From a virus, in IMG/VR virus record IMGVR_UViG_3300045741_000085, positions 1 to 28,856 of that record: 28,856 nt of DNA; one strand, given 5' to 3'. The notes below the pieces were generated by a model. The model ran no database searches, had not been told where the DNA came from, and saw nothing but the letters and a program-made list of their open reading frames with translations. Positions 6,442 to 28,856 of this stretch are shown here, one piece after another (positions within the stretch are counted from its first letter, which is position 1; every line of letters begins with the position of its first letter). Position numbers and translations under genes: made by a program.

Positions 6442-7530
6442 ATGCCACCACGGGCCACCACAAAACGACATCCTCGAAAACATCCCAAACCGACCAAAAA
6501 GGCCGTCAGAAAATCCAAGCCTCGCGTGAAGGGAGCGCCGAAAAAGAAAGCCAAGCGCGCCATGAAGCGCCCGAGCCTGGACAGGAAGGTGAAGCGCCCG
6601 GACTTGAACAGAGGGAAGCAATCGGCTGCCGCGCGGGAAGAGGTAGTCCAGAGCGATATCGAGAAGGTCCGTGCGTTCATCGTGGCAAAGGCGGTCGGCG
6701 GGCTGAATGACGTGGAGATCGTCGCGGGGCTCCAGGAGGAGTTGCACTACACGATGGCGCGGCGCACCGTGTTCGACTATCGGCTGTCACTCGCCCAGGA
6801 GATCGCCAAGACAGCCATGCAGGAGTTCGAGCGCGCGCTCGCGGCGCATCCTGGCGGACAGGCGGCGCACCGGATCCACAGATACGGGGAGCTTTACGAC
6901 ACCCTGGACATGATGACATTCAAGGACGACCGCGCCACGGTCGCAGCGTTCGAGGTCCAGCGGAAGCTCCTGCACTCCATGGGCGAGGAGATGGACAATC
7001 AGTTCCAGATATTCGTCAAGTACGGCATGGCAGCGAAAGAGGGAACGGGGCTGCCCGCCACGAAAGAAGAGTTGGAAAAGTACATGGAGCGGTTGAAGGC
7101 GCTGGGGAAGCGCATCGACAAGCTCGATCTCGTTGCGATCCGTGCGAGACTGGAGGGAAGGGATGCAGCGATACCTGTCTCTTCTACGGTATCTCGACCA
7201 TCTATACGGGGCGATGGGATGGAGCCGAGGCAGGACGCAGATGCGCGATCTCCAGCCCCGGCTCTCCCAGCGCGAGTGGCAGCGGGACAACCTCCGACAA
7301 ACCAGGGTCCTCCACCGGGCCGCGCTACTGGAGCACCGAACCCACCGGCCAACGCGGCTCATACTGTACCCGCCGGTCCAAGAGCGCCCACCGCCTCTGT
7401 AGTCCCGGGTTCGCCACAAACATCACCTCCAGCCGCCTCCCCCACAAAAATGACTCCTGCGAAGCCCGCTGGTGGCACGATTCCTCAAAAGGGACCAACG
7501 GGAAGTAGCAAACCCGGGGGGGCGGCATAG
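6442..7530 (+). CDS. Candidate small terminase subunit with basic N-terminus and Pro/Gly-rich tail
   Basis: 362 aa, immediately upstream of the large terminase; its TAG overlaps the terminase GTG. Residues 1-58 are extremely basic (KRHPRKHPKPTKKAVRKSK) and suited to DNA binding. Residues about 65-115 contain a possible helix-turn-helix (a predicted helix followed by MARRTVFDYRLSLAQEIA), and residues about 115-235 are helical. From about residue 240 the sequence is low-complexity Pro/Ala/Ser/Thr/Gly with weak coding bias. Position, basic charge and helical content suggest the DNA-recognising small terminase, but I see no diagnostic motif, so a non-terminase DNA-binding protein is possible. Residues about 241-320 are also covered by a second frame with its own ribosome binding site (7163-7402). 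Confidence 0.6.
   Translation: MPPRATTKRHPRKHPKPTKKAVRKSKPRVKGAPKKKAKRAMKRPSLDRKVKRPDLNRGKQSAAAREEVVQSDIEKVRAFIVAKAVGGLNDVEIVAGLQEELHYTMARRTVFDYRLSLAQEIAKTAMQEFERALAAHPGGQAAHRIHRYGELYDTLDMMTFKDDRATVAAFEVQRKLLHSMGEEMDNQFQIFVKYGMAAKEGTGLPATKEELEKYMERLKALGKRIDKLDLVAIRARLEGRDAAIPVSSTVSRPSIRGDGMEPRQDADARSPAPALPARVAAGQPPTNQGPPPGRATGAPNPPANAAHTVPAGPRAPTASVVPGSPQTSPPAASPTKMTPAKPAGGTIPQKGPTGSSKPGGAA
7163..7402 (+). CDS. Possible nested small basic protein inside the upstream terminase-region gene
   Basis: 79 aa in the +1-shifted frame relative to the 6442-7530 gene. A strong ribosome binding site (GGAGGGAAGGG) directly precedes its ATG, the third codon positions are clearly G/C-rich, and the product is an ordinary-looking helical basic protein (QRYLSLLRYLDHLYGAM, then RQTRVLHRAALLEHR). 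Over the same bases the longer frame gives only low-complexity Pro/Ala sequence. Either both frames are used, or the longer protein really ends near here and 7403-7529 is noncoding. Confidence 0.45.
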   Translation: MQRYLSLLRYLDHLYGAMGWSRGRTQMRDLQPRLSQREWQRDNLRQTRVLHRAALLEHRTHRPTRLILYPPVQERPPPL

Positions 7531-9061
7531 TGTTCAACTTCGCCGACAAGCTCGCCATCATCGAGAACTATCTGGACCATCCGGCAAACCCGGACGAAAA
7601 GATCACGCTCGACGACTGGCAGACACAGTACCTCGAAGCGACCGACCGTTTCCTTATCACCAACAAATCACGGCGCATAGGCTGGAGCTTCGTGACGGCA
7701 CTCCGGGGCACCGTGGAAATGCTCGACCCGGACACGACGCATTACACCAAGCAGTATGTCTCGTTCTCCCAGGACGACGCCAAAGAGAAAATCAACTTCG
7801 CGCGGGAGTTCTACTACTACCTGCCCGACTACTTCATGGACGCGCACGGCAACCGCATCCGAAAGAAGAAACTGACCAGCGAACAGCGCACGGTCCTGGA
7901 GGTCGAGGATACGACGGGCAAGACGCGCTCGCGTCTCATTTCCCTTCCCTGCCGACCCGTGCGCGGGCGCGGCGGTATCGTCTCCCTGGACGAGTTCGCG
8001 TTCCATGCGAAGGCCGATCTCATCTACACGTCGGCACTCCCCGTTATCTCGCGCGGGGGCTCTATCGAGATCGGCAGCACACCGTTCGGCAATAGCGGGC
8101 GCTTCTATGAAATCCTGAATGACAAGGGCGCCTACCCGAGCTACACGCGCTGGAACATTCCCTGGTACTACTCGCCCGCGCTCTGTAACGACGTGCCCGG
8201 GGCGATCCTGGATATCCTGCTTCCGACCGAGGCAAAGGTCCTCAAGTACGGTACCGAAATCCTCCAGGCCATTTTCTACCAGATGCCGTTCGAGGATTTC
8301 CAACAGGAGTATGAGTGCAGCTTCCGCGACGATCTCGTCGCGTTCATTACCCTGGACATGATCCGCGACTGTACGCCGGTCGGCGACGACGAGATTCTCC
8401 AGTTCCGCAGCCTGGAGGACTTCATCATCAACTTTGACCCGAAGGTCCACGGCGATCTGTACGCGGGCTACGACGTGGGGCGGACGAACGACGCATCCGA
8501 GCTTGTCATCATGGGGAGCTACCCGGAGCAGAAGGTCCGTACCGTGTGGGCGACAATCAGCTATCGCAAGATGGAGTTCTCCGACCAGGAGGACATTCTC
8601 TTGAAGATGATGCACGAGCTTCCCGTGGTGCGGCTGGCAATCGACCAGACCGGCCTGGGGATGCAGCTTGCCGAAAACCTAAAAAAAAAAGAGGCAACCG
8701 CGTCGAGCCCGTCACGTTCACGGGGCCGATCAAGGAAGAGCTTGCCAACGCCATGTGGCTGGGGTTCGACCGAAAGGAATACCTGCTCCCGGCCGACCGC
8801 GACCTACAGCGGCAGATTCATGCCATGCGAAAGACGGTCACGCTCGCGGCTCACGCTCGGTTCGACGTGGACAAAGCGGAGAAGCACCACGGCGACAAGT
8901 TTTGGAGCATGGCGCTGGCCGAGTACGCAGCATCCGGGGCACGGGAGAGCACGTTCTACGCACAGTTCGCCGAACGGCGGCGCAAGGAAGGTCGCACGAT
9001 GACGGGATTGAATCAGGTCCAGGTTATCAATAAGATCAAGTCATTCAGGAGGGCTCGCTAA
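7530..9061 (+). CDS. terL: Terminase large subunit (packaging ATPase-nuclease), reading frame interrupted at A10
   Basis: The DNA-packaging motor: it cuts concatemeric DNA and pumps it through the portal. The start is the GTG at 7530 (TAGTG overlap); an in-frame stop at 7506 excludes earlier starts. The ATPase domain has a variant Walker A (NKSRRIGWSF, about residue 44) and Walker B (IVSLDEF, about 150). The RNase H-like nuclease supplies Asp in GYDVG (about 313) and AIDQTG (about 370). At 8681-8690 a run of ten A residues breaks the frame: the first frame runs on to 9002 as Arg/Ser-rich non-family sequence (490 aa), while the conserved C-terminus (VEPVTFTGPIKEELA, and HGDKFWSMALAEYA with the expected third Asp) lies in the -1 frame and ends at 9061. 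The joined product would be about 510 aa, a normal length. Confidence 0.93.
8681..8690 (+). other. A10 slippery tract / apparent -1 frameshift in terL
   Basis: In-frame codons read CTA AAA AAA AAA GAG, so an A_AAA_AAA slippery heptamer is in the correct phase for -1 ribosomal slippage, as at E. coli dnaX (A_AAA_AAG). Ten A residues are also enough for transcriptional slippage, and are a classic place for sequencing or assembly length errors: 8 or 11 A residues would restore one open frame. I see no convincing downstream hairpin. Confidence 0.8.
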
Positions 9062-10794
9062 TGAACCCGCGCTTTACCCAGGCCGAGTTGTTTGGACACC
9101 TCCAGAAGTCAGGCACGATCTCGAAGAAAACCCGCGAAGTCTCCCAGGAGAAGGAAGTGAAGCCGCCCGACATGCGGGAGGCCGTGCTGCGCCCGTTGAA
9201 GGCGCATATGTTCAACCCGTACTCGCGCACGTTCTGGCGCAAGGGCATCCTGGAGCCGAACAAGCGCATCAACTACCGGACGCTGCGCTACGTCTCCGAA
9301 AAGGCGTGGCTCATCAACGCCATTATCGCGCACAAGATCCGGCAGATGAAGCCCTTCCTCAAGGAAGCCACGAAAGAGAACGACCGGGGTTTCCAGATCA
9401 AGATGAAGGCGCCCGAGAAGCACCCGGGCCCGGAAGAGAAGAAGCGGATCAAAGCCTATACCGACTTCTTCCTCAACACCGGTTTCCGACCCGACCCCGA
9501 GCGGGAGGATAACATCGTCGCGTTCACGGCGAAGGCGCTGCGCGATATCGTCGGCATCGACGCCGTGGCAACCGAAATCCAGAGATCGGTCAACGGCAAG
9601 CCATACGCATTTTGGGCGCTGGACCCCGCGACCATCAAACGCTGCACGGAAGAGGGATACAACGGGGACGACAGGATCAAGTTCGTCCAGGAAATCGACA
9701 TGAAGATCATGGCGTTCTACACACGCTCCGATCTCGTGTACGAGTTTATGAATCCCCGTTCCGACATCGAGCATTTCGGCTACGGCTACTCGCTCACCGA
9801 ACAGGCCATCGACCTTATCACGGCGCTCATCAACACCTTCGCGTACAACATGGGCGTGTTCACGGACGACAACCTCCCGCGCGGCATGATAATGCTCAAC
9901 GGGGATGCCGACGTGGAGGACGTGGAAGCCATCGAGGAGTACATGGTGTCCATCATGTCCGGCGGGCCGCAAGCGCGCTGGCGCATCCCGATCATTCCCA
10001 GCGGCGGGAAGCCGGGGGAGCGAGCCCTGGAATGGGTCAGCTTCGACAAGAACAACACGGACATGCAGTTTTCGATGTGGACGGAGTTCATCTGGAGCGG
10101 CGTGGCCGCGCTCGCCGGGACTGACCTGGAGGAGCTTGGCATCCGAACGCAGAAGAGCACGACGCTCCTGGGGGAGAACGTCGAGCCCAAGATCGAGGCC
10201 AGCAAGAGCCGCAGCCTGGGCGATCACCTTTCGTTCATGCAGCAGCACTTCCAGAAAATCCTGGAGGAGATCGACCTCGCATACAAGTTCGAGTTCGTAG
10301 GCTATGAGCGGGACGACCCGACCGTGGCCGCGAACCTCCGCGAAAGCGACCTTCGCACGTTCACGACCATCGACATGATAATGGCGGAGAAGGACCTGCC
10401 GCCGTTCAACCAGGAGTGGTCGAAGATACCCCTCAATCCCTACGTCGTGCAGATGGTCCAGGCGGACAAGCAAGCCCAGCAGCAGCAGGAAATGGCCGAG
10501 CAGCAAGCACAGCAAGGCGTGGACCCCGAGCAGGAACAGGGAGCCAATCAGGACCTTGCCAAGCAGTTCCGCGATCTCCAGACGGGGGCTCCGCCACAGA
10601 CAGGCCAGCCGAAGCCCCCGGGAGGCGCGGCGCCGAAGCCCGGGGGAAAGCCCGGCGGAGCGAAGCCGCCGAACGTACAGACGCGGCCCACCATGCCGTC
10701 GAGCCCGGGGTTGCCTCCTGGTGGGAAGCCGCCGAAGCCGCCCAGCATCAACAAGTCATTCGCGGACGACGCGATCATATCCATCGAGGTCTGA
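9061..10794 (+). CDS. Phage portal protein
   Basis: 577 aa; ATG in a TAATG overlap with terL, ribosome binding site AGGAGGG. The portal is the dodecameric ring at the capsid vertex through which DNA is packaged and ejected. Support comes from position directly after terL, family-like length, and portal-type segments: a helical start, INAIIAHKIRQMK near residue 85, the DPATIK region near 190, the SDIEHFGYGYSLTEQAIDLI helix (about 233-252), and a C-terminal clip/barrel helix region near 420-470. From about residue 475 the chain is Gln-rich (KQAQQQQEMAEQQAQQ) and then Pro/Gly/Lys-rich to residue 560, ending in a short ordered-looking stretch (FADDAIISIEV). That tail is longer than in most portals and may be disordered or bind scaffold. 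Confidence 0.9.
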   Translation: MNPRFTQAELFGHLQKSGTISKKTREVSQEKEVKPPDMREAVLRPLKAHMFNPYSRTFWRKGILEPNKRINYRTLRYVSEKAWLINAIIAHKIRQMKPFLKEATKENDRGFQIKMKAPEKHPGPEEKKRIKAYTDFFLNTGFRPDPEREDNIVAFTAKALRDIVGIDAVATEIQRSVNGKPYAFWALDPATIKRCTEEGYNGDDRIKFVQEIDMKIMAFYTRSDLVYEFMNPRSDIEHFGYGYSLTEQAIDLITALINTFAYNMGVFTDDNLPRGMIMLNGDADVEDVEAIEEYMVSIMSGGPQARWRIPIIPSGGKPGERALEWVSFDKNNTDMQFSMWTEFIWSGVAALAGTDLEELGIRTQKSTTLLGENVEPKIEASKSRSLGDHLSFMQQHFQKILEEIDLAYKFEFVGYERDDPTVAANLRESDLRTFTTIDMIMAEKDLPPFNQEWSKIPLNPYVVQMVQADKQAQQQQEMAEQQAQQGVDPEQEQGANQDLAKQFRDLQTGAPPQTGQPKPPGGAAPKPGGKPGGAKPPNVQTRPTMPSSPGLPPGGKPPKPPSINKSFADDAIISIEV

Positions 10795-14158: not shown

Positions 14159-14455
14159 ATGGTACAGCTACAGCGATTCGAGCTTGAAGGGGCAGACACA
14201 AAGCCCGTGACGTTCGCCCTGTTCCCGTTCGACAAGGTGGTAGGCGTCAACGGGGCCGAGGTCGAGGACGGCGCGATCCGTCCCATGCTCCTGGTGGAAG
14301 TTGAAACCAGCCTCCCGCGCGAGGTCCAGCCCGCCGGGCGCAGCTATCGCATCGTGCCTATGGACATGCAGCCCGAGAACGGATGGAAGTACGTGGACAG
14401 CTTCCGAAACACCGCGAAGAACATGATGAGCGTGTACGAGGTAACGGAGGCGTGA
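14159..14455 (+). CDS. Hypothetical beta-rich protein (98 aa)
   Basis: The ATG follows AAAGGGGGACC. The whole product reads as a compact beta-rich domain (KPVTFALFPFDKVVGVNG, then RPMLLVEVETS, then SYRIVPMDMQ). I do not recognise it. It overlaps the next gene in a GTGA arrangement. Confidence 0.6.
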   Translation: MVQLQRFELEGADTKPVTFALFPFDKVVGVNGAEVEDGAIRPMLLVEVETSLPREVQPAGRSYRIVPMDMQPENGWKYVDSFRNTAKNMMSVYEVTEA

Positions 14456-17115
14456 ACGGGTTTGAGCCCGCATACACGACGACCTTTCAAGGGCTCCCCA
14501 TCGTCATAGAGAATCGAAAGGGCAGCGTCCGCCGTGGCGTTGACCAGGACGGCCACGAGTGGGAAACGCGGATGATGAATCCCTACGGGTTCATCCGGGT
14601 GCGCGACGGGCGCGGGGCTGACGGAGAGTATATCGACTGCTACCTGGGGCCGAACCGTGAAGCCATGGCAGTCTACGTCATTCACCAGCAGGACCCCGAG
14701 ACGCATCTGTACGACGAGGACAAGGTAATGCTCGGCTTCAATTCCCAGGCCGAGGCGGAGACCGCATACCGAAAGCACTATGACAAGCCCGGCTACCTCA
14801 TGGAGACGACGGCCTTCGATTGCGTGGAGAAGTTCCGAGAGGCCATGAGGATGATGATGCCCGGCGATCCCGTGCGCCCCCCGCGCGAGGAGAAGAGTAT
14901 GGACCCCATGTTCGTCGTCCCGTTCGAGAAGGCAATCACGGTGAAGAAGGGGACCATCAAGGTTGGAGACAAACTGCGGTTCCATTTCAGCGGGACTATC
15001 GGCGAAGTCCCGGGCCGCGTTGTCGAAACCCCCGAGTCGCGGATTCACTATCCGCCGGATGCGCGGCCGTGGGGAGTAACGAAGGGTGACGTGTCTATCC
15101 TGACCATGCCGCTGGACAACGTCGGCATGTTCAAGGCGCTGCGGTCCGGGCTCGTTCCCACGAAAGTCCAGGTGATGCGGAATGGACGCGCGTTCACACA
15201 GACGGTCTACAAGCGGCCGGACGAGGCGCAGCCCGCCGCTGCCCCACGGCAGATGAACCCGGAGGACGACGTTCCGCGCGGGCCGTGGATTTCGGGTCCC
15301 CCGGCGGGCGAGGCTGACAACTTCGAGCGGCGCGCATTGAGCGGGATGGCGGACAGCCAGCTTGCCAAGTTCCAGAAGCAAGCGGAGAAGGCATACGCAA
15401 AGACGTTCAAGCTCATGGACCCAAACTCGAAAATGGCCCAGGAGGACCGAGAGCATTTCCAGCATCGTCTCCAGCTTGTCGAGGAGGAGTGGAAGCGCCG
15501 CAAGGGAATGACGAAGGCCATACGCGCGGGGCTCCACCCGGAGAAGGTCCCCGTCCACCGCGCGGGCAAGACGTTCATGCAGACCGTGTTCAAGAGGACG
15601 CCGAAGCTCCAGGCGCCGCGCAAGCAGAAGAAGGTCGAGCCGTCGCCCGGCCAGATCGGGTTCGACTTCGCTGCCGAGCCAGCCCAGGTGGAACCGACAG
15701 TCACTCCCGAGGCAACGGGTCTATGGCAGACTCTCTCCCCGGAGGCGCACGAGGCTCACGCGAAGCTGCGGGAGGCCCGGCGGAATATGGACTACACGAA
15801 GATGAGCGACAAGCTGGCCGATGAGACCTATGCGCTGCAACAGTTCGGCGCCGCGCTTGTCCCCGGGCTGCGGCTCCAGGACTTGGATCGGGCTGCGCTC
15901 ACGTTCGAGGTACTCGCCGGGACCGATGGCTCCGTAGAGAAGTGGAACGCCTACAAGGAGAAGCTGGCAGCGGAGAACAGGATCGCGCGGCCCAAGGCCG
16001 AAGCGACGGCGCCAGCCGCGCCCGCAGCCCCGGCCGAGGTCCAGCAGCTTCCCCAGGATGAGACGGCAGGATACCCGAAACTGCCGGAGGATGCCGCAGA
16101 GGCCGAGAAGTGGGTGAATGAGGGGCGCGCGTTCCTCAGTGACGACAACGAAACGATGGGGGCACACGACCCGGCGACGGGCCGACCGATACGGCTCACC
16201 GATGAAACGCTGCCGATGGCGCGTCCGCCCATGGCGTCCGAATCACTCAGCCAGTACCTTCTCAGCGCATCGGAAACCCTGATAGCGGAGTTGCGTCACT
16301 ATGACGGCGCCGACCATGCGGGGAGCGATAGCTGGCGCGAGGGCGTGAACGGGACGCGGCGGCTCCTGGAGAACGCGATAGCAAAGGGAGGGACGGACCC
16401 GCTGGCCGTCCGCCGCGAGTTCACCAAGCAGATCATGGAAGCGACGGCATACCTGGACGCGGAGAAGAAGAAGGAAGCCAACCGCAAGCGCCCAACCATC
16501 CAGTCATGGGCCGACCATGGCAAGGCGGCTCTCGAAGATGCCGGGGCGGCGTTCCGCATCATGTTCATGCGCTGGCAGGAGAAGGACGGTCCCGTGCTAC
16601 AGGAAACAGCGGAGACGGTGCGCGAGGATCAAGTCTACCAGGACCCTCCCGCGCGGCCCGATATCAACGCGCTCACCAGGGAGCAGGTGGATTCGTTTTT
16701 CAAGAACATCGAAAGCGCATGGTACGCCAACCGCGTGAAGGTGTTTTTCCCGGCGTACAAGGACGCATGGAAGAATCATCACCTTTCCAGGATGCCCATG
16801 GAGAAGAGGGAGGCCGTCGAGTTCTCCGGAGGAATCTGGCGGCTGGTATCGGGCGTGTCCAGCTTTCTGTTCGAGGGGAAGCGCAAGAGCACGGTGACGC
16901 AGGACGAGATTGCCCATGAGCTTGCCAATAGCCGCGCCTTGGCGGAACAGAAGATCGAGAGCGAAGCGAAGCTGAACGGGAGAAGCGGGGACGACCCGAT
17001 AACGCAAGCACAGCGTTCCGGGCTCGATGAGGCATGGCGGTTCGTGACGCTGGCGTTCAAGGCGGAGACAGAGAACGCGGGGACCCCGAACGGCGGGCGG
17101 TCGTACAACCAGTAG
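14452..17115 (+). CDS. Polyvalent protein with N-terminal inorganic-pyrophosphatase-like domain and two copies of the shared tag
   Basis: 887 aa from the GTG at 14452 (GTGA overlap); an in-frame ATG at 14383 would lie inside the previous gene. Residues about 10-130 resemble the InPase domain described in phage polyvalent proteins: GLPIVIENRKGSVRRG, then PYGFIRVRDGRGADGEYIDC with the acidic metal site, then DEDKVMLGF. Residues about 155-230 hold a beta segment (GTIKVGDKLRFHF). Tag copies lie at 234-256 and 361-384, each preceded by a similar helix (MFKALRSG, MTKAIRAG), so the segment looks duplicated. QIGFDF follows the second copy. The rest is long helical, Ala/Glu-rich sequence with a helical C-terminal domain (about 680-850) that I do not recognise. 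Such proteins are thought to be packaged and injected; pyrophosphate hydrolysis would favour phage DNA synthesis. Confidence 0.8.
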   Translation: MNGFEPAYTTTFQGLPIVIENRKGSVRRGVDQDGHEWETRMMNPYGFIRVRDGRGADGEYIDCYLGPNREAMAVYVIHQQDPETHLYDEDKVMLGFNSQAEAETAYRKHYDKPGYLMETTAFDCVEKFREAMRMMMPGDPVRPPREEKSMDPMFVVPFEKAITVKKGTIKVGDKLRFHFSGTIGEVPGRVVETPESRIHYPPDARPWGVTKGDVSILTMPLDNVGMFKALRSGLVPTKVQVMRNGRAFTQTVYKRPDEAQPAAAPRQMNPEDDVPRGPWISGPPAGEADNFERRALSGMADSQLAKFQKQAEKAYAKTFKLMDPNSKMAQEDREHFQHRLQLVEEEWKRRKGMTKAIRAGLHPEKVPVHRAGKTFMQTVFKRTPKLQAPRKQKKVEPSPGQIGFDFAAEPAQVEPTVTPEATGLWQTLSPEAHEAHAKLREARRNMDYTKMSDKLADETYALQQFGAALVPGLRLQDLDRAALTFEVLAGTDGSVEKWNAYKEKLAAENRIARPKAEATAPAAPAAPAEVQQLPQDETAGYPKLPEDAAEAEKWVNEGRAFLSDDNETMGAHDPATGRPIRLTDETLPMARPPMASESLSQYLLSASETLIAELRHYDGADHAGSDSWREGVNGTRRLLENAIAKGGTDPLAVRREFTKQIMEATAYLDAEKKKEANRKRPTIQSWADHGKAALEDAGAAFRIMFMRWQEKDGPVLQETAETVREDQVYQDPPARPDINALTREQVDSFFKNIESAWYANRVKVFFPAYKDAWKNHHLSRMPMEKREAVEFSGGIWRLVSGVSSFLFEGKRKSTVTQDEIAHELANSRALAEQKIESEAKLNGRSGDDPITQAQRSGLDEAWRFVTLAFKAETENAGTPNGGRSYNQ
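15151..15219 (+). other. Shared protein tag, copy 2
   Basis: Residues 234-256 of the pyrophosphatase-like protein: LVPTKVQVMRNGRAFTQTVY and then KRP. It is the more diverged of two copies in the same protein, which are 127 residues apart. Confidence 0.7.
15532..15603 (+). other. Shared protein tag, copy 3
   Basis: Residues 361-384 of the same protein: KVPVHRAGKTFMQTVFKR within the tag. QIGFDF follows about 20 residues later. Confidence 0.75.
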
Positions 17116-19037: not shown

Positions 19038-22000
19038 GTGTTCGTCCTTCAACTGACAAAGGCCCGCCATGCTGCCGGACTCGTCCCAAAGAAGATCACC
19101 GTCCACCGCGACGGCAAGCCCGTCCTGACAACGGTGTGGGTACGCCCGGAAGAGGCTGCGACCGAACAGCCGAAGGGTGTCCAGTTCGACCTGTTCGCGG
19201 AAGCCGGGGAGCAGCGGGAGAAGGAAGAGCGCAGCCGTGCGACGCCCCCCGGCCTGGACGAAGCGAAGTGGAAGTCTGCCCTGGAGCGAGCCGACCAGAT
19301 GAAGGCCGTCTCCGCGAACATGACCCCGGCCGATCTCCAGGCGCTCACCCCCGGCGAGCGGACCGCCGTGGAGAAGCTGAAACGCGGCGAGGTCGTGGAC
19401 GTTGCCGAGGAGTTGTATCGCGGGGAGCACGGGGCTCCCGAGAGCCCGAAGCCCGGAGAGGCCGAAGCGGCAGCCGAGGCAGCGCAGCCCGAGCCCGTCA
19501 TTCCAGAGCCGAAGAAGCGGAAGCCGCGCGCCGCGAAGCAGAAAGCAGCCGCCGAGCCCCAGGCCGAGGTTTCTCCCGTCGAGGCCGAGGCGCGCAAGAT
19601 CGTTCCGCCCGCCGTCGAGGTAGAGCCCGCGTCCGCCTCCGCGCGCGGCCTGGATACCCCGATCTCGAAAACAGAGTTCCGCGACTATGGCTCCTGGGCC
19701 GCGAAGGGCCGAGGCATGACACCGGACAAGCGCAACACGCTCAATCAGAACGTGGCCCGGATCCTGATGAAGCCCGGGAACGAGATCACCGAGGAGGAGA
19801 TCGTCCAGATCCGGCAGTACAGCGGATTCGGAGGAGTGAAGGCCGAGGACGAGCGCGGAGTGCTTTACGATTACTACACCAGCCCGCCCGTGGCGAAAAT
19901 GACGTGGCAAATGCTGGACAAGCTGGCGCCGATCAAGGAGGGCGCAACCGTCCTGGAGCCGTCGTGCGGGACCGGCGTGTTCTTTGATGTGGCACCCGAA
20001 GGCATGAAGCTGACCGGCGTCGAGCTTGACCCGCGCACAGCATCGGCAGCCGCGATCCTCCAGCCGAAGGCCAAGGTCCACAACATGGCTTTTGAGCAAT
20101 TCAACCTCTTCAACATTGCCGAGTTCGATCATGTCGTAGGCAACGCTCCATTCGGCGAGCGGCCGATCACCACGGGTTTCATGGACATGCCCGGGGAAAA
20201 GAGCCTGGACCGTTACTTCATCGAACGGTCGATTGACAGCGTGAAGGACGGCGGGACCGTGGCGCTCATCGTCCACCCGGGGGTCCTACGGGGCAAGAGT
20301 CACCGCGAGTGGCGCGAGAACCTTTCCAAGAAAGCGCAGTTCATGGGCGCCGTGAAGCTGCCAACGTCCAGCTTCAAGCACACGCACACGGCCGTCTCAC
20401 CCGACATTCTGTTCTTTCGGAAGCTCCCCCAGGAGGCGCGCGATATCCTGGCGAGCATGGATACGGCTGCCGTGGACGACGCCGGGTTCATCGACCATGA
20501 CTGGACCGAGGGAAACTACTACGACAGCTACCCCGACAACTACCTGGGCGAGAAAGCGCGGGGCAATTTCGGACAGGAGATTGCCGAGGGCGAGTTGACC
20601 CCGGAGAAGATGGACAAGGCAGTCAAGGCGTTCCAGGCAAAGCCGGATCTCACGACGAAGCACCTGGACGCGCTGCGTAAGTACGCCGAGGCGCATCCGG
20701 CGGAGAAGAAAGCGGCGCCGAGCGGGATGAAGCCGACCGAAATGGAGGCAGCCGCAATCGCGGAAAAGACTCTCCAGGTCGGCATGACCAAAACGGTGGA
20801 CGGCGTGATTTACCGTCTGAACGCGAATCACCGATGGGAGCGCGTGGACGGCGACGCTATCGTGGCGGCAAAGGTCGATGCGCTGAAAGCGATCTCCGCC
20901 AACGTCAAGGCAATCCGCGACGCCATGCACAACCAGGAGCCCGTGGACGTTCTCCAGGCGCAGACCCGCGAGCTTATGCAGAATTACGCCGATACCTACG
21001 GCTCGAAGCACGGGGAGGATGAGGACGTAAAGAAATGGCTGAAAAAGAACGCGGCCACGGAAGGCGTGTTCGAGGCCATGGCGACAGCGGCCGACTCCGA
21101 TATCGTCACCAAGCAAAACGTGTTCGACAAGTACATCGAGATCAAAGACGGGCACCAGCCAGACGTGGAAGCCCTGTCTGCTATCGCGGCGACAGGCGGG
21201 ACCGCGACCGAGGAGCGTATCCGCAAGGACTATCCGAACCGCGCCGACGAATTGATCGGACTCATGTACGCCAACAAGGACGTGTTCCTGGACACGGATG
21301 GTGCTTGGAAGCTGCGGGAGGATTTCGTTGTCGGCAACGCATACGAAAAGATGGACGCTCTCAAGGCAGCCATCGAGAAGGAAACGGATGCGAAGCGCAA
21401 GGCGAAGCTCCAGGCCGGGCACGACACGCTCTATGAGGCCATCGGGTGGGTCCCCATCGAGGACGCGGACATAAAGCCGTACTCGCGCTGGATACCCGAG
21501 GACATCCTGAATCGGTGGATCACGAGCGAGAGCGGACTGGACATGGGCGGGAGTAGCGGCATGGGCGGCCCGCAGGTCCGCTGGGACGAGGATGAACAGA
21601 AATGGTCGTCAAGCAATTCCCAGCTTGAACGTTTCTTCAACCTCCAGAAGCAGCGTGAGAAGGGCGTCGATACCGATGTCTACAACCGCAACATGGAGGA
21701 CAACTTCAAAGCGTTCCTGGCCGTGGACACGGAAGCGCGAGGGCAGGTCGAGGACCTCTACAACCGGCTGTTCAACGCGGAGCTTGGCGTTCCCACGAAG
21801 GTCTACCCGATAGCTCTCGAAGGCTGGAACAACGACAAGTACACGCTCCGCCCGTGGCAATGGCAGACGATCCACCATCTCTACCGGTCCGGGAAAGGCA
21901 TCTCCGCGCTCGGCGTCGGGTTCGGAAAGACGCTGGGCGCCATCGGGCTCATGGCGCTACTGCGGCAGGAAGGCAAGGCAAAGCGCCCGTTCCTCCAGGT

Positions 22001-24800
22001 CCCGAATAACAAGGTCAAGGACTGGATGAAGGAAATCAGCGAAGCCATGCCCGGGCTCAAGATCGGCGCCGTCGATCCAGAGACGAAAGGCTACGGGGAC
22101 CGTGACAAGAGGTACGCCATGTACCAGGAGCTTGCCAACGGCGACTATGACGTTATCATCCTGCCCGAATCCAGCGCGAGCGAAATCCAGCTACGGGAAG
22201 AGAACGACAAGGAGATCACGGACCGCATCGTCACGTCCCAGCTTCCCGACGTTTCCGAGAACAGCAAGAAATCCCAGCGCGACAAGGAAAAGGCCAAGAT
22301 GAAGGCCGAGACGCGGCTTGAATCGCAGACAGGTGCGAAGAACGTCACGATCAATTTCGAGGATTTCGGCTGCGACGCTATCTTCATAGACGAGGCGCAC
22401 AATTACAAAAACCTGTTCTCCTCCTCTCTCGCGCGCGAGACGGGGATGAACGACGGGCGCCGATCCGAGCGCGCCCTGGCCCTGTTCAAGAAAAACGAGT
22501 TGATCCGGCGCGACCATGGCGGGAAGGGCGTGTTCATGCTCACCGCGACGCCGCTGACGAATAGCCCACTGGAATACTACAACATGCTCATGCACGTCGC
22601 CCCGGAGGAAATGGAGCGGCTGGGAATCAAGAACATTGACGGGTTCATCCGAGAGTTCGCGGACTTCCAGGAGGGCGAGAAATACGACTGGAGCACGGGG
22701 ACGGTCAAGAAAAGCCGGATCCTCAAGTCCTTCAAGAACATCCGAGCCATGCAGGATATGTTCTTCAAGTACACCGATCTCCAGAATGACCCCGAGAAGA
22801 TCGGGCTCAAAAAGCCGAAAGCTGACTACGTTCCCACCAGGACGGCGGGCGACCAGCACCAGAAGGACGCCATCAAAGAGCTTGCCGAGGAGATCGAGAA
22901 GTATCGCGCCATGAGTGCCGAGGAACGGGAAGAGGCGTACCCAGGGCAAAACTTCCTCACGTTCTATTCCAGGATGCGAACGGCGTCCCTGGACATGGAG
23001 CTTCTCAACCCCGGGAAGTTCAAGGGATGGAAGAATCCGAAGCTGGACCGGCTCACGGAGAACATCAAGGAAATGCTGCCGACAGGCGCGGGGCAGGTCG
23101 TATTCTGTGACCGCGTTCTCTCCGGCGACGGCAGCCTGAACATGCACGACAAGATCAAAGCGGCTATCGCGGCAGCCGGGGTCCCCGAGGACCAGATTGC
23201 CGTGGTCAACGGCGTCACCAAGAGCGGCGGGGCCATGTCGGACAAAGCCCTTGAAAGCGCCGTATCGGATGCTATCGCGGGATTCAACGCCGGTAAGTAC
23301 AAGGTCATTCTCGGCACGACACAAACGCTGGGCGAAGGCGTGAACCTCCAGAAGAACAGCGCGGCGGTCCACCACCTGGACATTCCCTATCGGCCGTCTG
23401 ACTTCATCCAGCGCAACGGGCGCGTGGACCGGCAGGGTAACAAGCAGGAGAAGGTCAAGCTGTTCAACTACCTCTCCAGCGGCACCATCGACAACTACAG
23501 CGTCGGGCTCGTCCAGGGGAAGGCAAACTGGATCGACCAGCTTTTGAAATCCAAGAGCAAGGTCTTTATGAACCCGAACGACGACAACTACATCGACGTT
23601 GACGGGCTCCTCCTGGCGCTGACAGAGGAGTTCGGGGGAGGAGATCCGGGGGCAGCCGCGCGGCTCAAGGCGGAGATCACTTCCAAGAAGGAAGCCGCTA
23701 CCATGCAGATGCACCAGAAGAATGTCCACGACGCGCTGACTCAGCTTGCACTCATGCGCTCCACGGTGCGCTCCTATGAGGGCGACAAGGGGGCGCCCGA
23801 GTTCCAGGCCCGGCTCCGCAAGATTTCCTCCCTGGAAAGCAGCCTCCAGGCCAACCCTCAGTTCAATCACCTGGACCTGATATCCGAAAAGCCGCCCGTA
23901 TTCATGTACGACAAAAACAACAAGCGCGTCGTGCGCGAGGGCGACAACTTCGTCGGGGCCGATGGCACGGTCTACGAGGTCACGGGAGTGGACGACAAGA
24001 AAGGGGAGGCCATCATCTTCCCGCTGGGCGAGAAAACGAAAGAGGCGAAAGGCGGATGGCGCAACGGTCGCTGGACGCAGACGCGCGAGGTCAGCGCGGA
24101 GATCCGGCTCCAGAAGGACGGGACGTTCACGGATTGGAACCTCCAGGGCGAGGGCGGCGGGAAGCACTACCCCGTGTCGGCTGACCCGAAGCAGGGAGAG
24201 AAGTTGAAGGCCGTGTCCGACCCCGATCTCTTTAAGACCCAGGATGCCGCGTTCAAGCGCGCCAACTTCATCCAGCTTGCCCGGACGACGAAGCAGAAGG
24301 ACTACCGGACCGGCGTTCCCGTTCTCATGCGTGACGACCAGGATAACGTGCAACTGGCCGAGTACAGTCTGCCGAAAGACGATAGCTCGATCATCAACCC
24401 GTTCACGCCGGAGGGGAAGAAGGTCTACATGGACAACGCGGACCTCTTCGACGAAGAGCACGGGAAGGCGCTCGCGGAAATCATGGGGGACCCTGCGTTC
24501 GCCAAGCACGTCCGAATGAAGAAGCTCGCGGCCCTGGAAAGCAGCCCGATTGCAAAGAAGATCATGGGCCTACTGGCAAAGCATCCGAAAGGTTTCAGGC
24601 CGGACGAGGTGGGGGGGAGTTCCTATGAAGTCCGGACGTTCGTGAATCAACACCCCGATCTGGACTTCGGCTACTTCACCACGGAGAGCGGGGAGTCTGA
24701 CTACGGCATCATCCCGAAAGAGAAGGAAATGGAGAAGAGCATCGACCTGGGCGAGATGCCGGAGCCCGTGACGTTGCCAATGTTCGTCGTGCGGGTGTAG
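19038..24800 (+). CDS. DarB-like polyvalent protein: DNA adenine methyltransferase plus SNF2-type helicase, N-terminal tag
   Basis: 1,920 aa from the GTG at 19038 (GGGAGGGG upstream). Residues 15-37 are the shared tag, followed by QFDLF near 50 and a long Ala/Glu/Pro/Lys linker to about 210. The N6-adenine methyltransferase domain has motif I VLEPSCGTGVFF (about 305) and motif IV NAPFG (about 368; NAPF rather than the usual NPPY/F). Residues about 500-900 are helical, including a VDGVIYRLNANHRWERV module near 590. The superfamily 2 helicase has Walker A GVGFGKTLGAIG (about 957-968), DEAH in FIDEAHNYKN (about 1116), the SAT-like MLTATPLTNS (about 1170), LGTTQTLGEGVNLQ (about 1430) and QRNGRVDRQ (about 1458). 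A beta-rich C-terminal region follows. This layout matches phage P1 DarB, an injected antirestriction protein. All key motifs appear intact. Confidence 0.88.
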   Translation: MFVLQLTKARHAAGLVPKKITVHRDGKPVLTTVWVRPEEAATEQPKGVQFDLFAEAGEQREKEERSRATPPGLDEAKWKSALERADQMKAVSANMTPADLQALTPGERTAVEKLKRGEVVDVAEELYRGEHGAPESPKPGEAEAAAEAAQPEPVIPEPKKRKPRAAKQKAAAEPQAEVSPVEAEARKIVPPAVEVEPASASARGLDTPISKTEFRDYGSWAAKGRGMTPDKRNTLNQNVARILMKPGNEITEEEIVQIRQYSGFGGVKAEDERGVLYDYYTSPPVAKMTWQMLDKLAPIKEGATVLEPSCGTGVFFDVAPEGMKLTGVELDPRTASAAAILQPKAKVHNMAFEQFNLFNIAEFDHVVGNAPFGERPITTGFMDMPGEKSLDRYFIERSIDSVKDGGTVALIVHPGVLRGKSHREWRENLSKKAQFMGAVKLPTSSFKHTHTAVSPDILFFRKLPQEARDILASMDTAAVDDAGFIDHDWTEGNYYDSYPDNYLGEKARGNFGQEIAEGELTPEKMDKAVKAFQAKPDLTTKHLDALRKYAEAHPAEKKAAPSGMKPTEMEAAAIAEKTLQVGMTKTVDGVIYRLNANHRWERVDGDAIVAAKVDALKAISANVKAIRDAMHNQEPVDVLQAQTRELMQNYADTYGSKHGEDEDVKKWLKKNAATEGVFEAMATAADSDIVTKQNVFDKYIEIKDGHQPDVEALSAIAATGGTATEERIRKDYPNRADELIGLMYANKDVFLDTDGAWKLREDFVVGNAYEKMDALKAAIEKETDAKRKAKLQAGHDTLYEAIGWVPIEDADIKPYSRWIPEDILNRWITSESGLDMGGSSGMGGPQVRWDEDEQKWSSSNSQLERFFNLQKQREKGVDTDVYNRNMEDNFKAFLAVDTEARGQVEDLYNRLFNAELGVPTKVYPIALEGWNNDKYTLRPWQWQTIHHLYRSGKGISALGVGFGKTLGAIGLMALLRQEGKAKRPFLQVPNNKVKDWMKEISEAMPGLKIGAVDPETKGYGDRDKRYAMYQELANGDYDVIILPESSASEIQLREENDKEITDRIVTSQLPDVSENSKKSQRDKEKAKMKAETRLESQTGAKNVTINFEDFGCDAIFIDEAHNYKNLFSSSLARETGMNDGRRSERALALFKKNELIRRDHGGKGVFMLTATPLTNSPLEYYNMLMHVAPEEMERLGIKNIDGFIREFADFQEGEKYDWSTGTVKKSRILKSFKNIRAMQDMFFKYTDLQNDPEKIGLKKPKADYVPTRTAGDQHQKDAIKELAEEIEKYRAMSAEEREEAYPGQNFLTFYSRMRTASLDMELLNPGKFKGWKNPKLDRLTENIKEMLPTGAGQVVFCDRVLSGDGSLNMHDKIKAAIAAAGVPEDQIAVVNGVTKSGGAMSDKALESAVSDAIAGFNAGKYKVILGTTQTLGEGVNLQKNSAAVHHLDIPYRPSDFIQRNGRVDRQGNKQEKVKLFNYLSSGTIDNYSVGLVQGKANWIDQLLKSKSKVFMNPNDDNYIDVDGLLLALTEEFGGGDPGAAARLKAEITSKKEAATMQMHQKNVHDALTQLALMRSTVRSYEGDKGAPEFQARLRKISSLESSLQANPQFNHLDLISEKPPVFMYDKNNKRVVREGDNFVGADGTVYEVTGVDDKKGEAIIFPLGEKTKEAKGGWRNGRWTQTREVSAEIRLQKDGTFTDWNLQGEGGGKHYPVSADPKQGEKLKAVSDPDLFKTQDAAFKRANFIQLARTTKQKDYRTGVPVLMRDDQDNVQLAEYSLPKDDSSIINPFTPEGKKVYMDNADLFDEEHGKALAEIMGDPAFAKHVRMKKLAALESSPIAKKIMGLLAKHPKGFRPDEVGGSSYEVRTFVNQHPDLDFGYFTTESGESDYGIIPKEKEMEKSIDLGEMPEPVTLPMFVVRV
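19080..19148 (+). other. Shared protein tag, copy 5
   Basis: Residues 15-37 of the DarB-like protein: KKITVHRDGKPVLTTVWVRP within the tag. QFDLF follows about 13 residues later. Confidence 0.75.
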
Positions 24801-25578: not shown

Positions 25579-25730
25579 AAGACGCAGCCGATATCACCGT
25601 AGAGGAAATCGAGAAGAGTAACGCCCTGGTGCAGACTGGCGGCGGGGATATCATCGTGCTCCCCGTGAAGCACCCGCCGATAGGGCTCATGCTGGAGCTA
25701 CGGGAGTGGATGCGGGGGGTGAGGAAATGA
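25575..25730 (+). CDS. Small hypothetical protein (51 aa)
   Basis: ATGA overlaps at both ends support this short frame. The product is DITVEEIEKSNALVQTGGG, then IIVLPVKHPPIGLMLELREW, and a basic end: a helix, a strand and a helix. I do not recognise it. Confidence 0.55.
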   Translation: MKDAADITVEEIEKSNALVQTGGGDIIVLPVKHPPIGLMLELREWMRGVRK

Positions 25731-27886
25731 GCAAGGTCAAGTTCATCGTCAAAACGCCGTACAATCTCGTTCCCCAGGAGAAGCCCGTCCACCGCGACGG
25801 GAAAACGTTCATGCAGACGTTCTACATTCGCCCGGCGTTCCTGGACGCGCCAAAGCGAAAGGCACCACCGGCCGCCGAGCAGCTTGGATTCGATTTCGAG
25901 AGCGGGGAAGGGACGGGCGCGGGGCTCTCACCGTCGAAGGATACAAAGGCTCCTGGCGGCGGGCTGGTGACAGAGAAAGAGGTCCGGAGGCGCGCAAAGA
26001 CAGAGGACGTGTATCACGACGTTGGCTCGAAGATTGGGCGCGCGAAAAAGGACTTGGCTGCCGAACGGCTCAACCTGGAGAACCTCGCGGACCTGGAGAA
26101 AGACAAGGCTGTAGCCTTCGATGCCGTCCAGAAAAAGAACATTCTGCCCGCCTATGATCCTGCCGACATGCTGGCGGCTGGCTTCCGGCCCGAGAACATT
26201 CTGCTCATCAAGACCATGGCGAAGCTCCTCCCCGACCGCCCGGCCGAGGATTCCCAGGAGGCGCGCGAGAGCTACGTGCATGACCTCACGGCGCTGGCGG
26301 ACGTATTCGAGAACAGCAAGGGAGAGGCCGACCTCATCACAAAGATATTCGAGTTGGGCGTTCTCTCCCGGGACACCCCGCCAATCCTGGAGGAAGGCAA
26401 ACAGTATGCCTCTCCGCCGCGCCGCCGATACCACCAGCGGATTCACGACGGCGAGCAATCCCTGTTCTACAACATGGGGAAAGCCTTCTATCTCTATGAG
26501 AAAAAGGCGCGCATACAGACCAGCGTGGAAGAAACGAAGCACCTTTCCGAAATGCGCTACCGGGTCGGCTCTCATTACAATCACAGCGACGCCAAGCACA
26601 TTGAACGCGCATGGTCGGCTGCCGACGAGATCGCGTCATACGACAATTCCGTTAGCGACGGAAGCCTCACGCCGGAGGAAGCGCGGAAGTCTCAAATGAC
26701 CCTGATAGGCTTCTTCTTCGAGCCCAAGAAAGCCAAGCACAAGGGCGAAGGGGAGAAGTGGATTTTCAAGCGCGAGGTCAGTGAGAAGGTACAACGCACG
26801 GGCGGGCGCGCCATCGACGCCAACGAGCCCGAGAAGTACCTGGAGGCTTTCGGGATGCGCGCGGTCGAGTACGGTAACTACGTGCTCGCGGACAAGGAAT
26901 CGGCCAAGTACCACACGACGCGCTGCGCCGAGGCCCTGGCCGATCTCGCGGACGTGCTTGGCCTGGAGGACCGGCAGGTATCATACAACGGGCGGCTGGC
27001 GCTCGCGTTCGGGGCCCGGGGGAGTGGACGCGCGTCGGCGCACTACGAGCCCGTTCGGAAGGTCATCAACCTCACGAAATGGGCGGGAGGAGGATCGCTC
27101 GCGCACGAGTGGGGGCACTTCCTGGACAACACCGCATACGGGATTAACGCCCAGGAGAACGGCAGCGGGAACGGGGGTTCTGTCAACTATCTGTCACACG
27201 CGGGCGGGGATCGCGGGGACCCTATCCGACAGGCCATGGCCGTTGTGATGAAGTCCATGGAGACGCAGGAACGGGCAACGTCTATCGACGTGAAGGACGC
27301 GGAGAACGTCTACGCGGAGATCATGGCGAAAAACAAGTACGACACCGAGCGGTCAAACATGGAATCGCTCTACCGCCGCTACTTCATGGACTCCACCTTC
27401 TCCGAGCCCGTCAGCGTGGCAAAGAAAGCCCAGGGGATCATCGACCGGCTCTGGCAACAGAAAAGCTGGCGCCGCGCGTTCAACATGAGCCAGTTCGGTC
27501 CGCGATTCGTGAAGTACGTCGTCGGAAAGTCTGGTATCGGCGCCGCTTTCCCGGAGGGGAAGATCGAGTACAGCAGCCGCAGCGCATCCGATTTCGCGGC
27601 GACGGCAGCCGAGATGGGCGGATACTGGAACCGCAGCCATGAGAAGTTCGCCCGTGCCTTCGAGAGCTACGTCGAGGACAAGCTGATGGCAGCCGGGAGA
27701 AAGTCCACGTACCTTGTGACGGGGACCGGCGTCGGCGCCATGCGGGGCTACGGCAAGTCGATCTATCCCACGGGCTCGCACCGCCAGGAGATGGTGCAAG
27801 CGTTCGACCAGCTTGTGGCCGCGCTCAAGGAGAAGGATTACTTCAAGAAGGCCCAGGCGATCATGGAGGCAAGATGGGTTTCGTGA
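25727..27886 (+). CDS. Tagged polyvalent protein with LPD1-type zincin-like (HEWGH) domain
   Basis: 719 aa. The ATG at 25727 overlaps the preceding stop; an in-frame ATG at 25706 is inside that gene. Residues 14-36 are the shared tag (KPVHRDGKTFMQTFYIRP), followed by QLGFDF near 51. Residues about 60-340 are helical. Residues about 365-470 match the LPD1 large polyvalent-protein-associated domain: FGMRAVEYGNYVL, ALADLADVLGLE, GRLALAFGARGSGRASAHYE, VINLTKWAGGGSLAHEWGHF. His-Glu-x-x-His (about 460-464) is intact. A further conserved block (GGYWNRSHEKFARAFESYVE near 635) probably supplies the third metal ligand. This is a putative injected metallopeptidase-like protein; substrate unknown. Confidence 0.83.
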   Translation: MSKVKFIVKTPYNLVPQEKPVHRDGKTFMQTFYIRPAFLDAPKRKAPPAAEQLGFDFESGEGTGAGLSPSKDTKAPGGGLVTEKEVRRRAKTEDVYHDVGSKIGRAKKDLAAERLNLENLADLEKDKAVAFDAVQKKNILPAYDPADMLAAGFRPENILLIKTMAKLLPDRPAEDSQEARESYVHDLTALADVFENSKGEADLITKIFELGVLSRDTPPILEEGKQYASPPRRRYHQRIHDGEQSLFYNMGKAFYLYEKKARIQTSVEETKHLSEMRYRVGSHYNHSDAKHIERAWSAADEIASYDNSVSDGSLTPEEARKSQMTLIGFFFEPKKAKHKGEGEKWIFKREVSEKVQRTGGRAIDANEPEKYLEAFGMRAVEYGNYVLADKESAKYHTTRCAEALADLADVLGLEDRQVSYNGRLALAFGARGSGRASAHYEPVRKVINLTKWAGGGSLAHEWGHFLDNTAYGINAQENGSGNGGSVNYLSHAGGDRGDPIRQAMAVVMKSMETQERATSIDVKDAENVYAEIMAKNKYDTERSNMESLYRRYFMDSTFSEPVSVAKKAQGIIDRLWQQKSWRRAFNMSQFGPRFVKYVVGKSGIGAAFPEGKIEYSSRSASDFAATAAEMGGYWNRSHEKFARAFESYVEDKLMAAGRKSTYLVTGTGVGAMRGYGKSIYPTGSHRQEMVQAFDQLVAALKEKDYFKKAQAIMEARWVS
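25766..25834 (+). other. Shared protein tag, copy 6
   Basis: Residues 14-36 of the LPD1 protein: KPVHRDGKTFMQTFYIRP within the tag. QLGFDF follows about 15 residues later. Confidence 0.75.
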
Positions 27887-28856
27887 TAGAGGGGTATCGC
27901 TATACCCCGGAGGCAATCACAAAGCTCGAAAAGTCCGGCGTCCTGGACCTGGAGGCGCACGATTACACGGCCATGTCCTTCCATACATGGTGGCGGATGC
28001 AGCGCAGCCTACGGCTCGTGGCGCGGCTCTACAAAGCGGAGGCGCCCGCTGGCATAACAGCCGAGCACAAGGCAACGGCCGCAAAGAAGCTCGGCAGCGG
28101 CGAACGCTGGATCACCATTCACCCGCCGGACGGCGACAAGTCCAGGCCCGGCGTTCCGATCCTCATTCGAGAGGACAAGGGAAGCGGAACCGCTCACGTC
28201 ATAGGTGGGGCGGGTGGGCGCTTGAACATGCTCAAGCTGAACAAGCTCAAGAGCCCGGAAGAGTACAAGAAAAACGTCATGGAGAAGAAAGAGGCCGAGC
28301 GCGAAAAGAAGAAGCTGGAGAAGGACAAGGTTCGGGCCGAGCGTGAGAAGATGTTCGCGGGCATGACCGAGAGCGAAGAGAAGGCGTACAAGGAACAGGA
28401 GAAAGCCGCCAAGCAAGGCGCCAAGCAGGATGAAGCCCAGCGCGCCAAGGAAAAGGAAAAGACAGAGGCGGAGTTCGCGGACTACATCGGCGAATCCCTG
28501 AAATGGGAAGAGGATGACATAGAGGGTCCGTACCGCGCACGGCTCGAAGCGTTGAAGGCGGAGGCAGCCGAGCTTGACCCCGAGGACGGGCGACTGAAAG
28601 AAATCCACCACGAGCTACGGATGCTTGAGAAGGCGTACAAACGCGCGCTCAAGAGCCAGCATTTGAACCGCCTCTCTCACGCGCGCGAGATCGTGAGAAA
28701 CTTCCAGGCCGACCTCCTGAAAGACAAGCAGCTTATGGACACCGTGCGGGAGAAGATCGGGGAGGACACGGGCGCCGCCGAGCGCATCCGCCGGGAGAAT
28801 GGCGACAGTATCGGCTTCATCACCGGCTACGGGGAGACGGCCCAGGAGAAGGGGCT
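27874..28856 (+). CDS. Coiled-coil phage protein, cut by the window end
   Basis: The ATG at 27874 (GGAGG just upstream, 13-base overlap with the previous gene) opens a frame that stays open to the last base, giving at least 327 residues. Residues about 70-125 contain GERWITIHPPDGDKSRPGVP, LIREDKGSGTAHVIGGAGG and KLNKLKSPEEYK, a beta module found in other phage head-associated proteins. Residues about 125-215 are a long Lys/Glu/Arg-rich coiled coil (KEAEREKKKLEKDKVRAERE). Residues about 215-327 are helical. It lacks the shared tag in the visible part. By context it belongs to the same injected or head-associated set; the C-terminal domain lies outside the window. Confidence 0.75.
   Translation, partial: MGFVIEGYRYTPEAITKLEKSGVLDLEAHDYTAMSFHTWWRMQRSLRLVARLYKAEAPAGITAEHKATAAKKLGSGERWITIHPPDGDKSRPGVPILIREDKGSGTAHVIGGAGGRLNMLKLNKLKSPEEYKKNVMEKKEAEREKKKLEKDKVRAEREKMFAGMTESEEKAYKEQEKAAKQGAKQDEAQRAKEKEKTEAEFADYIGESLKWEEDDIEGPYRARLEALKAEAAELDPEDGRLKEIHHELRMLEKAYKRALKSQHLNRLSHAREIVRNFQADLLKDKQLMDTVREKIGEDTGAAERIRRENGDSIGFITGYGETAQEKG

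Follow-up and report, generated by a model that had tools for sequence, protein, structure and literature searches.

A frame break at an A10 tract in the terminase gene of a virus record, and an unbroken frame in its relatives

The DNA analysed was the whole of the IMG/VR virus record IMGVR_UViG_3300045741_000085, a window of 28,856 bases. The terminase gene of this record, terL, is interrupted at a run of ten adenines and is followed directly by a portal gene:

7530 to 9002, plus strand: frame-0 ORF of terL, 490 aa with a GTG start, encoding the ATPase and the first part of the nuclease domain and then a 103-codon non-family tail
8681 to 8690, plus strand: A10 tract, comprising the last A of a CTA codon and the codons of family-typical lysines; the sole A/T run of at least 6 bases in the window
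8690 to 9061, plus strand: -1 frame continuation of terL (RGNRVEPVTFTGPIKEEL...HHGDKFWSMALAE...), with the third nuclease Asp at 8894-8896
9061 to 10794, plus strand: portal protein gene, its start overlapping the -1 frame stop; in a single frame in the window and in relatives

The GTG start of terL at 7530 overlapped the stop of the preceding ORF, and the final base of the -1 frame stop, at 9061, was the A of the portal ATG. The frame-0 codons at the site were CTA AAA AAA AAA GAG GCA, while those of the -1 frame were AAA AAA AAA AGA GGC AAC CGC GTC, and the latter frame was open until 9061. Terminase homology ended at about residue 387 and picked up again in the -1 frame; the 103 codons that followed the tract in the 490-aa ORF were Arg/Ser-rich. 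Three aspartates, D315, D372 and D456 (window 8472, 8643 and 8894), stood where a nuclease triad would be expected and were invariant in the alignment (A1). The three did not lie in one continuous ORF, D315 and D372 being in frame 0 and D456, in the sequence HHGDKFWS past the break, in the -1 frame. A read-through product of 510 aa regained D456. The preliminary description was thus correct in the exact position of the A10 and its in-phase A_AAA_AAA, in the loss of the third nuclease Asp and the non-family tail of the unshifted product, and in the terminase of about 510 aa restored by a -1 shift.

Profile matches were divided at the same place. The first half of terL matched positions 5-185 of phrog_5909 and the second half 188-265, and the corresponding matches to phrog_5713 were 2-43 and 46-121, so that two PHROG terminase families were divided almost exactly at the tract; phrog_2 was also matched. 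The 490-aa ORF covered positions 2-83 of the 155 in Pfam Terminase_6C with 23.5 bits, and the read-through protein covered 2-151 with 31.0 bits. The match was above the cut-off and was nearly full length in the read-through product only, in agreement with the claim that the tract splits the nuclease domain. The protein had the features of the TerL family, namely terminase profiles, an RNase H-like nuclease domain and an adjoining portal gene. No significant sequence match for terL was found among solved structures.

Downstream of the tract, codon-position G+C values of 0.65/0.45/0.81 marked the -1 frame as coding. Only this frame had coding composition there, and the frame-0 tail bore the codon signature of the other frame, so the tail of the 490-aa protein gave no sign of selection, although a truncated ATPase would not need a selected tail. 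The open tail was not special, because alternative frames at least as long as its 103 codons began at 10% of positions inside the genes of the window (p ~0.10). In relatives, the opening in the corresponding frame had a median of 21 codons. On these three grounds, the frame-0 tail was rejected as a genuine domain. Separate re-initiation of the C-terminal part was also rejected; on inspection, ORFs in that frame start only at two GTG codons, 8546 and 8755, and no ribosome site was obvious (unscored).

Elsewhere in the window, the portal, head-morphogenesis, pyrophosphatase-domain and LPD1 proteins and the terminal frame (27643-28854) aligned to relatives in single frames where matched, so the break in terL is isolated among the long genes. 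The start of a 910-aa ORF (14383-17115) matched Pfam InPase, an inorganic pyrophosphatase domain, with 124 bits, and this domain was also present at the matching place in L140 and L141. An ORF of 1920 aa (19038-24800), which sits amid an otherwise structural gene cluster, combined an N-6 DNA methylase domain (Eco57I match) with a helicase part (ResIII/SNF2-like, Helicase_C). The C-terminal domain of a 726-aa ORF (25706-27886) was LPD1 (large polyvalent protein-associated), and this ORF aligned in one frame to L141, a Spirochaetales MAG contig.

Relatives of terL were drawn from viral contigs, bacterial genomes and phages, giving 88 distinct loci in which both halves could be aligned, down to about 25% identity. 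All 88 kept one frame across the site, the longest local A run among them was 7, and neither the site nor the frame break was conserved in any. The nearest relatives, L002 (54%) and L065 (52%), had EDR and EDK at the lysine positions. The terminase of Brevibacillus phage Emery (KC595516.1) was homologous along the whole read-through protein, with 40% identity and the same GM..AENLKKK..VEP site, but it is encoded in one continuous 514-aa frame with TTG AAA AAG AAA TAC at the site. The linker after Leu384 was three residues long in 24 relatives of a shorter class, including the two closest, which matches the KKK of the read-through protein; KKK or RKK occupied the site in 14 of these 24. Since these relatives share the read-through linker length, a continuous frame would need a net gain of one base in the record. 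The alternative, a tract with two bases in excess instead of one missing, is less likely, given the three residues at the KKK place in the same 24 relatives. As aligned, the junction differs from the relatives in more than length: the residue after the lysines was Phe, Tyr or His in 85 of the 88 and Arg in this record. The absent base may sit in the codon right after the tract rather than in the tract itself, two placements that the alignment cannot separate.

Scans of the viral collection, which may not hold records very near the window, found no other terminase that combined these flanks with a tract of whatever length, and none with eight or more A's at the site; the other A-tract candidates that they returned were not terminases. 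Searches for closer relatives through the portal and head-morphogenesis proteins, by megablast of the greater part of the window against phages, and in genomes from the phylum, order and family to which the nearest bacterial relative belongs, gave nothing nearer than about 54%. Two observations were made on the relatives themselves. The terL relative L146 (genome G270, contig C86), one of the 88, had an in-frame TAA (...SASYISL*LIYANTPG...) away from the site, which marks either a decayed prophage or a recoded stop. In a Spirochaetota-phylum genome (G278, contig C1; locus L145), three equal-score matches to a terL relative, at about 1.177, 1.854 and 2.656 Mb, suggest three copies of one prophage.

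The tract was unusual for its genome. Apart from the A10, no A/T run of at least 6 occurred in the window, against 3-4 such runs expected from order-1 and order-2 Markov sequences. The longest run was at least 10 in 0.7-2% of the Markov replicates, and an A run of at least 10 arose in 3.4% of trials in which the ORFs were recoded synonymously. The genome is G+C-rich, yet the rare codons CTA, AAA and AGA are used at the tract, and the joint synonymous probability of the five site codons (CTA AAA AAA AAA AGA) was ~1e-5. The tract is odd, though its selection was post hoc and the lysines are family-typical. Runs of G7 elsewhere in the window sit within open frames, a point against a base-count error; with no other A/T run of at least 6, the record gives no test of the quality with which long A runs were counted.

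Directly established are the break, the homology on both sides of it, the unbroken frame in all relatives, and the want of recognisable stimulators of ribosomal frameshifting. The probable explanation is an ordinary terL with a net one-base break private to this record, due to a base-count or assembly error or to a recent private indel, and not a conserved regulatory device. A continuous terL gene would have lost one base at or directly after the A10, breaking the frame in this record, and the break would fall at the spot most prone to counting errors and to replication slippage. A read-through linker equal to that of the 24 shorter-class relatives is what would be expected if a continuous gene had lost one base. 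An error in base count or assembly would be the foremost candidate for the cause, with a likelihood not far short of even, while a private indel that left the copy disabled or variable in the population would be an unlikely one. Accurate short reads normally count an A10 correctly, which would weigh against an error if the record came from such reads. Some long-read assemblies are known to be weak at long homopolymers (PMC9262707), and a survey that covered 1106 prokaryote genomes expected frame breaks to be sequencing errors where they were unclustered and validated by homology (PMC3711429). A pure count error leaves the Arg and the improbable A-rich codon choice unexplained; whichever account is taken, the gene has a long tract of A's here. 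Judged from the sequences of the relatives, the ordinary explanation is enough for now.

An alternative that is possible, if doubtful, is that the A10 is real and that RNA polymerase adds or drops A's on it, so that some mRNAs encode the 510-aa protein and the rest truncated forms. Such slippage may be no more than tolerated, or the proportion of nuclease-less to full terminase that it fixes may be useful. Several observations are in keeping with it, 1) the tract, with its rare codons, is the sole long A/T run in a G+C-rich genome, 2) transcriptional slippage requires the run alone and no stimulators, 3) efficient slippage in vivo has been reported for runs of 9 As or Ts, and Thermus dnaX makes use of it (PMC5009743), while the A10 at the frame junction, 8681-8690, is longer, and 4) an A11 in tssM1 yields 20-25% full-length protein, both forms being required (PMC4256274). 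Against it, the tract and the break are common to no relative, although a run conserved in homologs would be expected of a gene of the tssM1 and dnaX type; the frame-0 tail does not have the shape of coding sequence, and an open stretch of its length is unexceptional; and runs of A provoke less slippage by the E. coli polymerase than runs of T do (PMC6260861).

A close parallel is tssM1 of Citrobacter rodentium (PMC4256274), where the frame is likewise broken at a long A run, full length needs a changed run length in the mRNA, and ribosomal stimulators are absent nearby. The two differ in that both products, the mRNA lengths and the function were demonstrated for tssM1, whereas terL is known from sequence alone; moreover, a related Yersinia gene also slips, while no relative shares the terL tract. 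In dnaX of Thermus thermophilus (PMC5009743), a long A/T run in an essential gene similarly gives two protein lengths, but in dnaX a single uninterrupted ORF encodes the long form, and the short form arises by slippage on nine bases, the reverse of what terL would do. By analogy, RNA-polymerase slippage should supply full-length protein if the A10 is real. A set-ratio switch within such a rescue is possible and unsupported; that the phage truly carries the A10 and makes nuclease-less and full-length terminase in a functional ratio by polymerase slippage is very unlikely. A search of the open-licence literature found no described terminase with programmed frameshifting or slippage, which is weak evidence of absence. 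The nearest case was the terminase of Streptomyces phage Hau3, a candidate for translational bypassing (PMC5009743), so a recoded terminase would have at least some precedent. Its product, like that of terL, may need recoding, but the bypassing is around a UUA codon and involves no A run.

A further and rather improbable reading takes the A10 as a true indel that inactivates terL, or as one allele at a tract of varying length, within a phage population that is defective or mixed. Replication slippage is likely to make long A/T runs hypermutable, as discussed in PMC1088944, and the residue beside the tract departs from a near-invariant Phe/Tyr/His as though the spot had changed recently. However, coding composition persists downstream, the other genes are without decay, and an A10 should leak some full-length product through slippage.

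The preliminary description had also seen in the A10 a classic -1 slippery phase, an argument of no force, because an in-phase A_AAA_AAA occurs in every stretch of at least nine A's. Stimulatory Shine-Dalgarno sequences for -1 frameshifting lie 10-14 bases upstream; the nearest such sequence here, GGGGA, ends about 20-23 bases ahead of the heptamers, and downstream folding, with z between -0.14 and -0.70, was no better than that of shuffles. Programmed -1 ribosomal frameshifting at the heptamer, producing an ATPase-only form and a full ATPase-nuclease in a set ratio, is thus highly improbable even though an in-phase heptamer exists and recoding of phage genes is common (PMC5009743), because the heptamer is unavoidable within an A10, the stimulators are missing and the site is not conserved.

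The same description had left a choice between programmed slippage and a homopolymer error, and had named, as grounds for refutation, relatives in which the frame is continuous and the tract short or recoded. Such relatives were found. Because all 88 are in one frame and their local A runs reach 7 at most, conserved programmed slippage is ruled out; an error, together with a private indel, is favoured as the likelier account. As a comparison of sequences, the evidence from relatives is compatible both with an error and with a private, real A10 read through by the polymerase, with or without programming of a set ratio.

If the break is an error, it advises caution against inferring recoding from single metagenomic records. 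Should the A10 prove real, the supply of an essential packaging motor would hinge on stuttering by the polymerase, and a form that lacks the nuclease could be relevant to how DNA packaging is uncoupled from DNA cutting.
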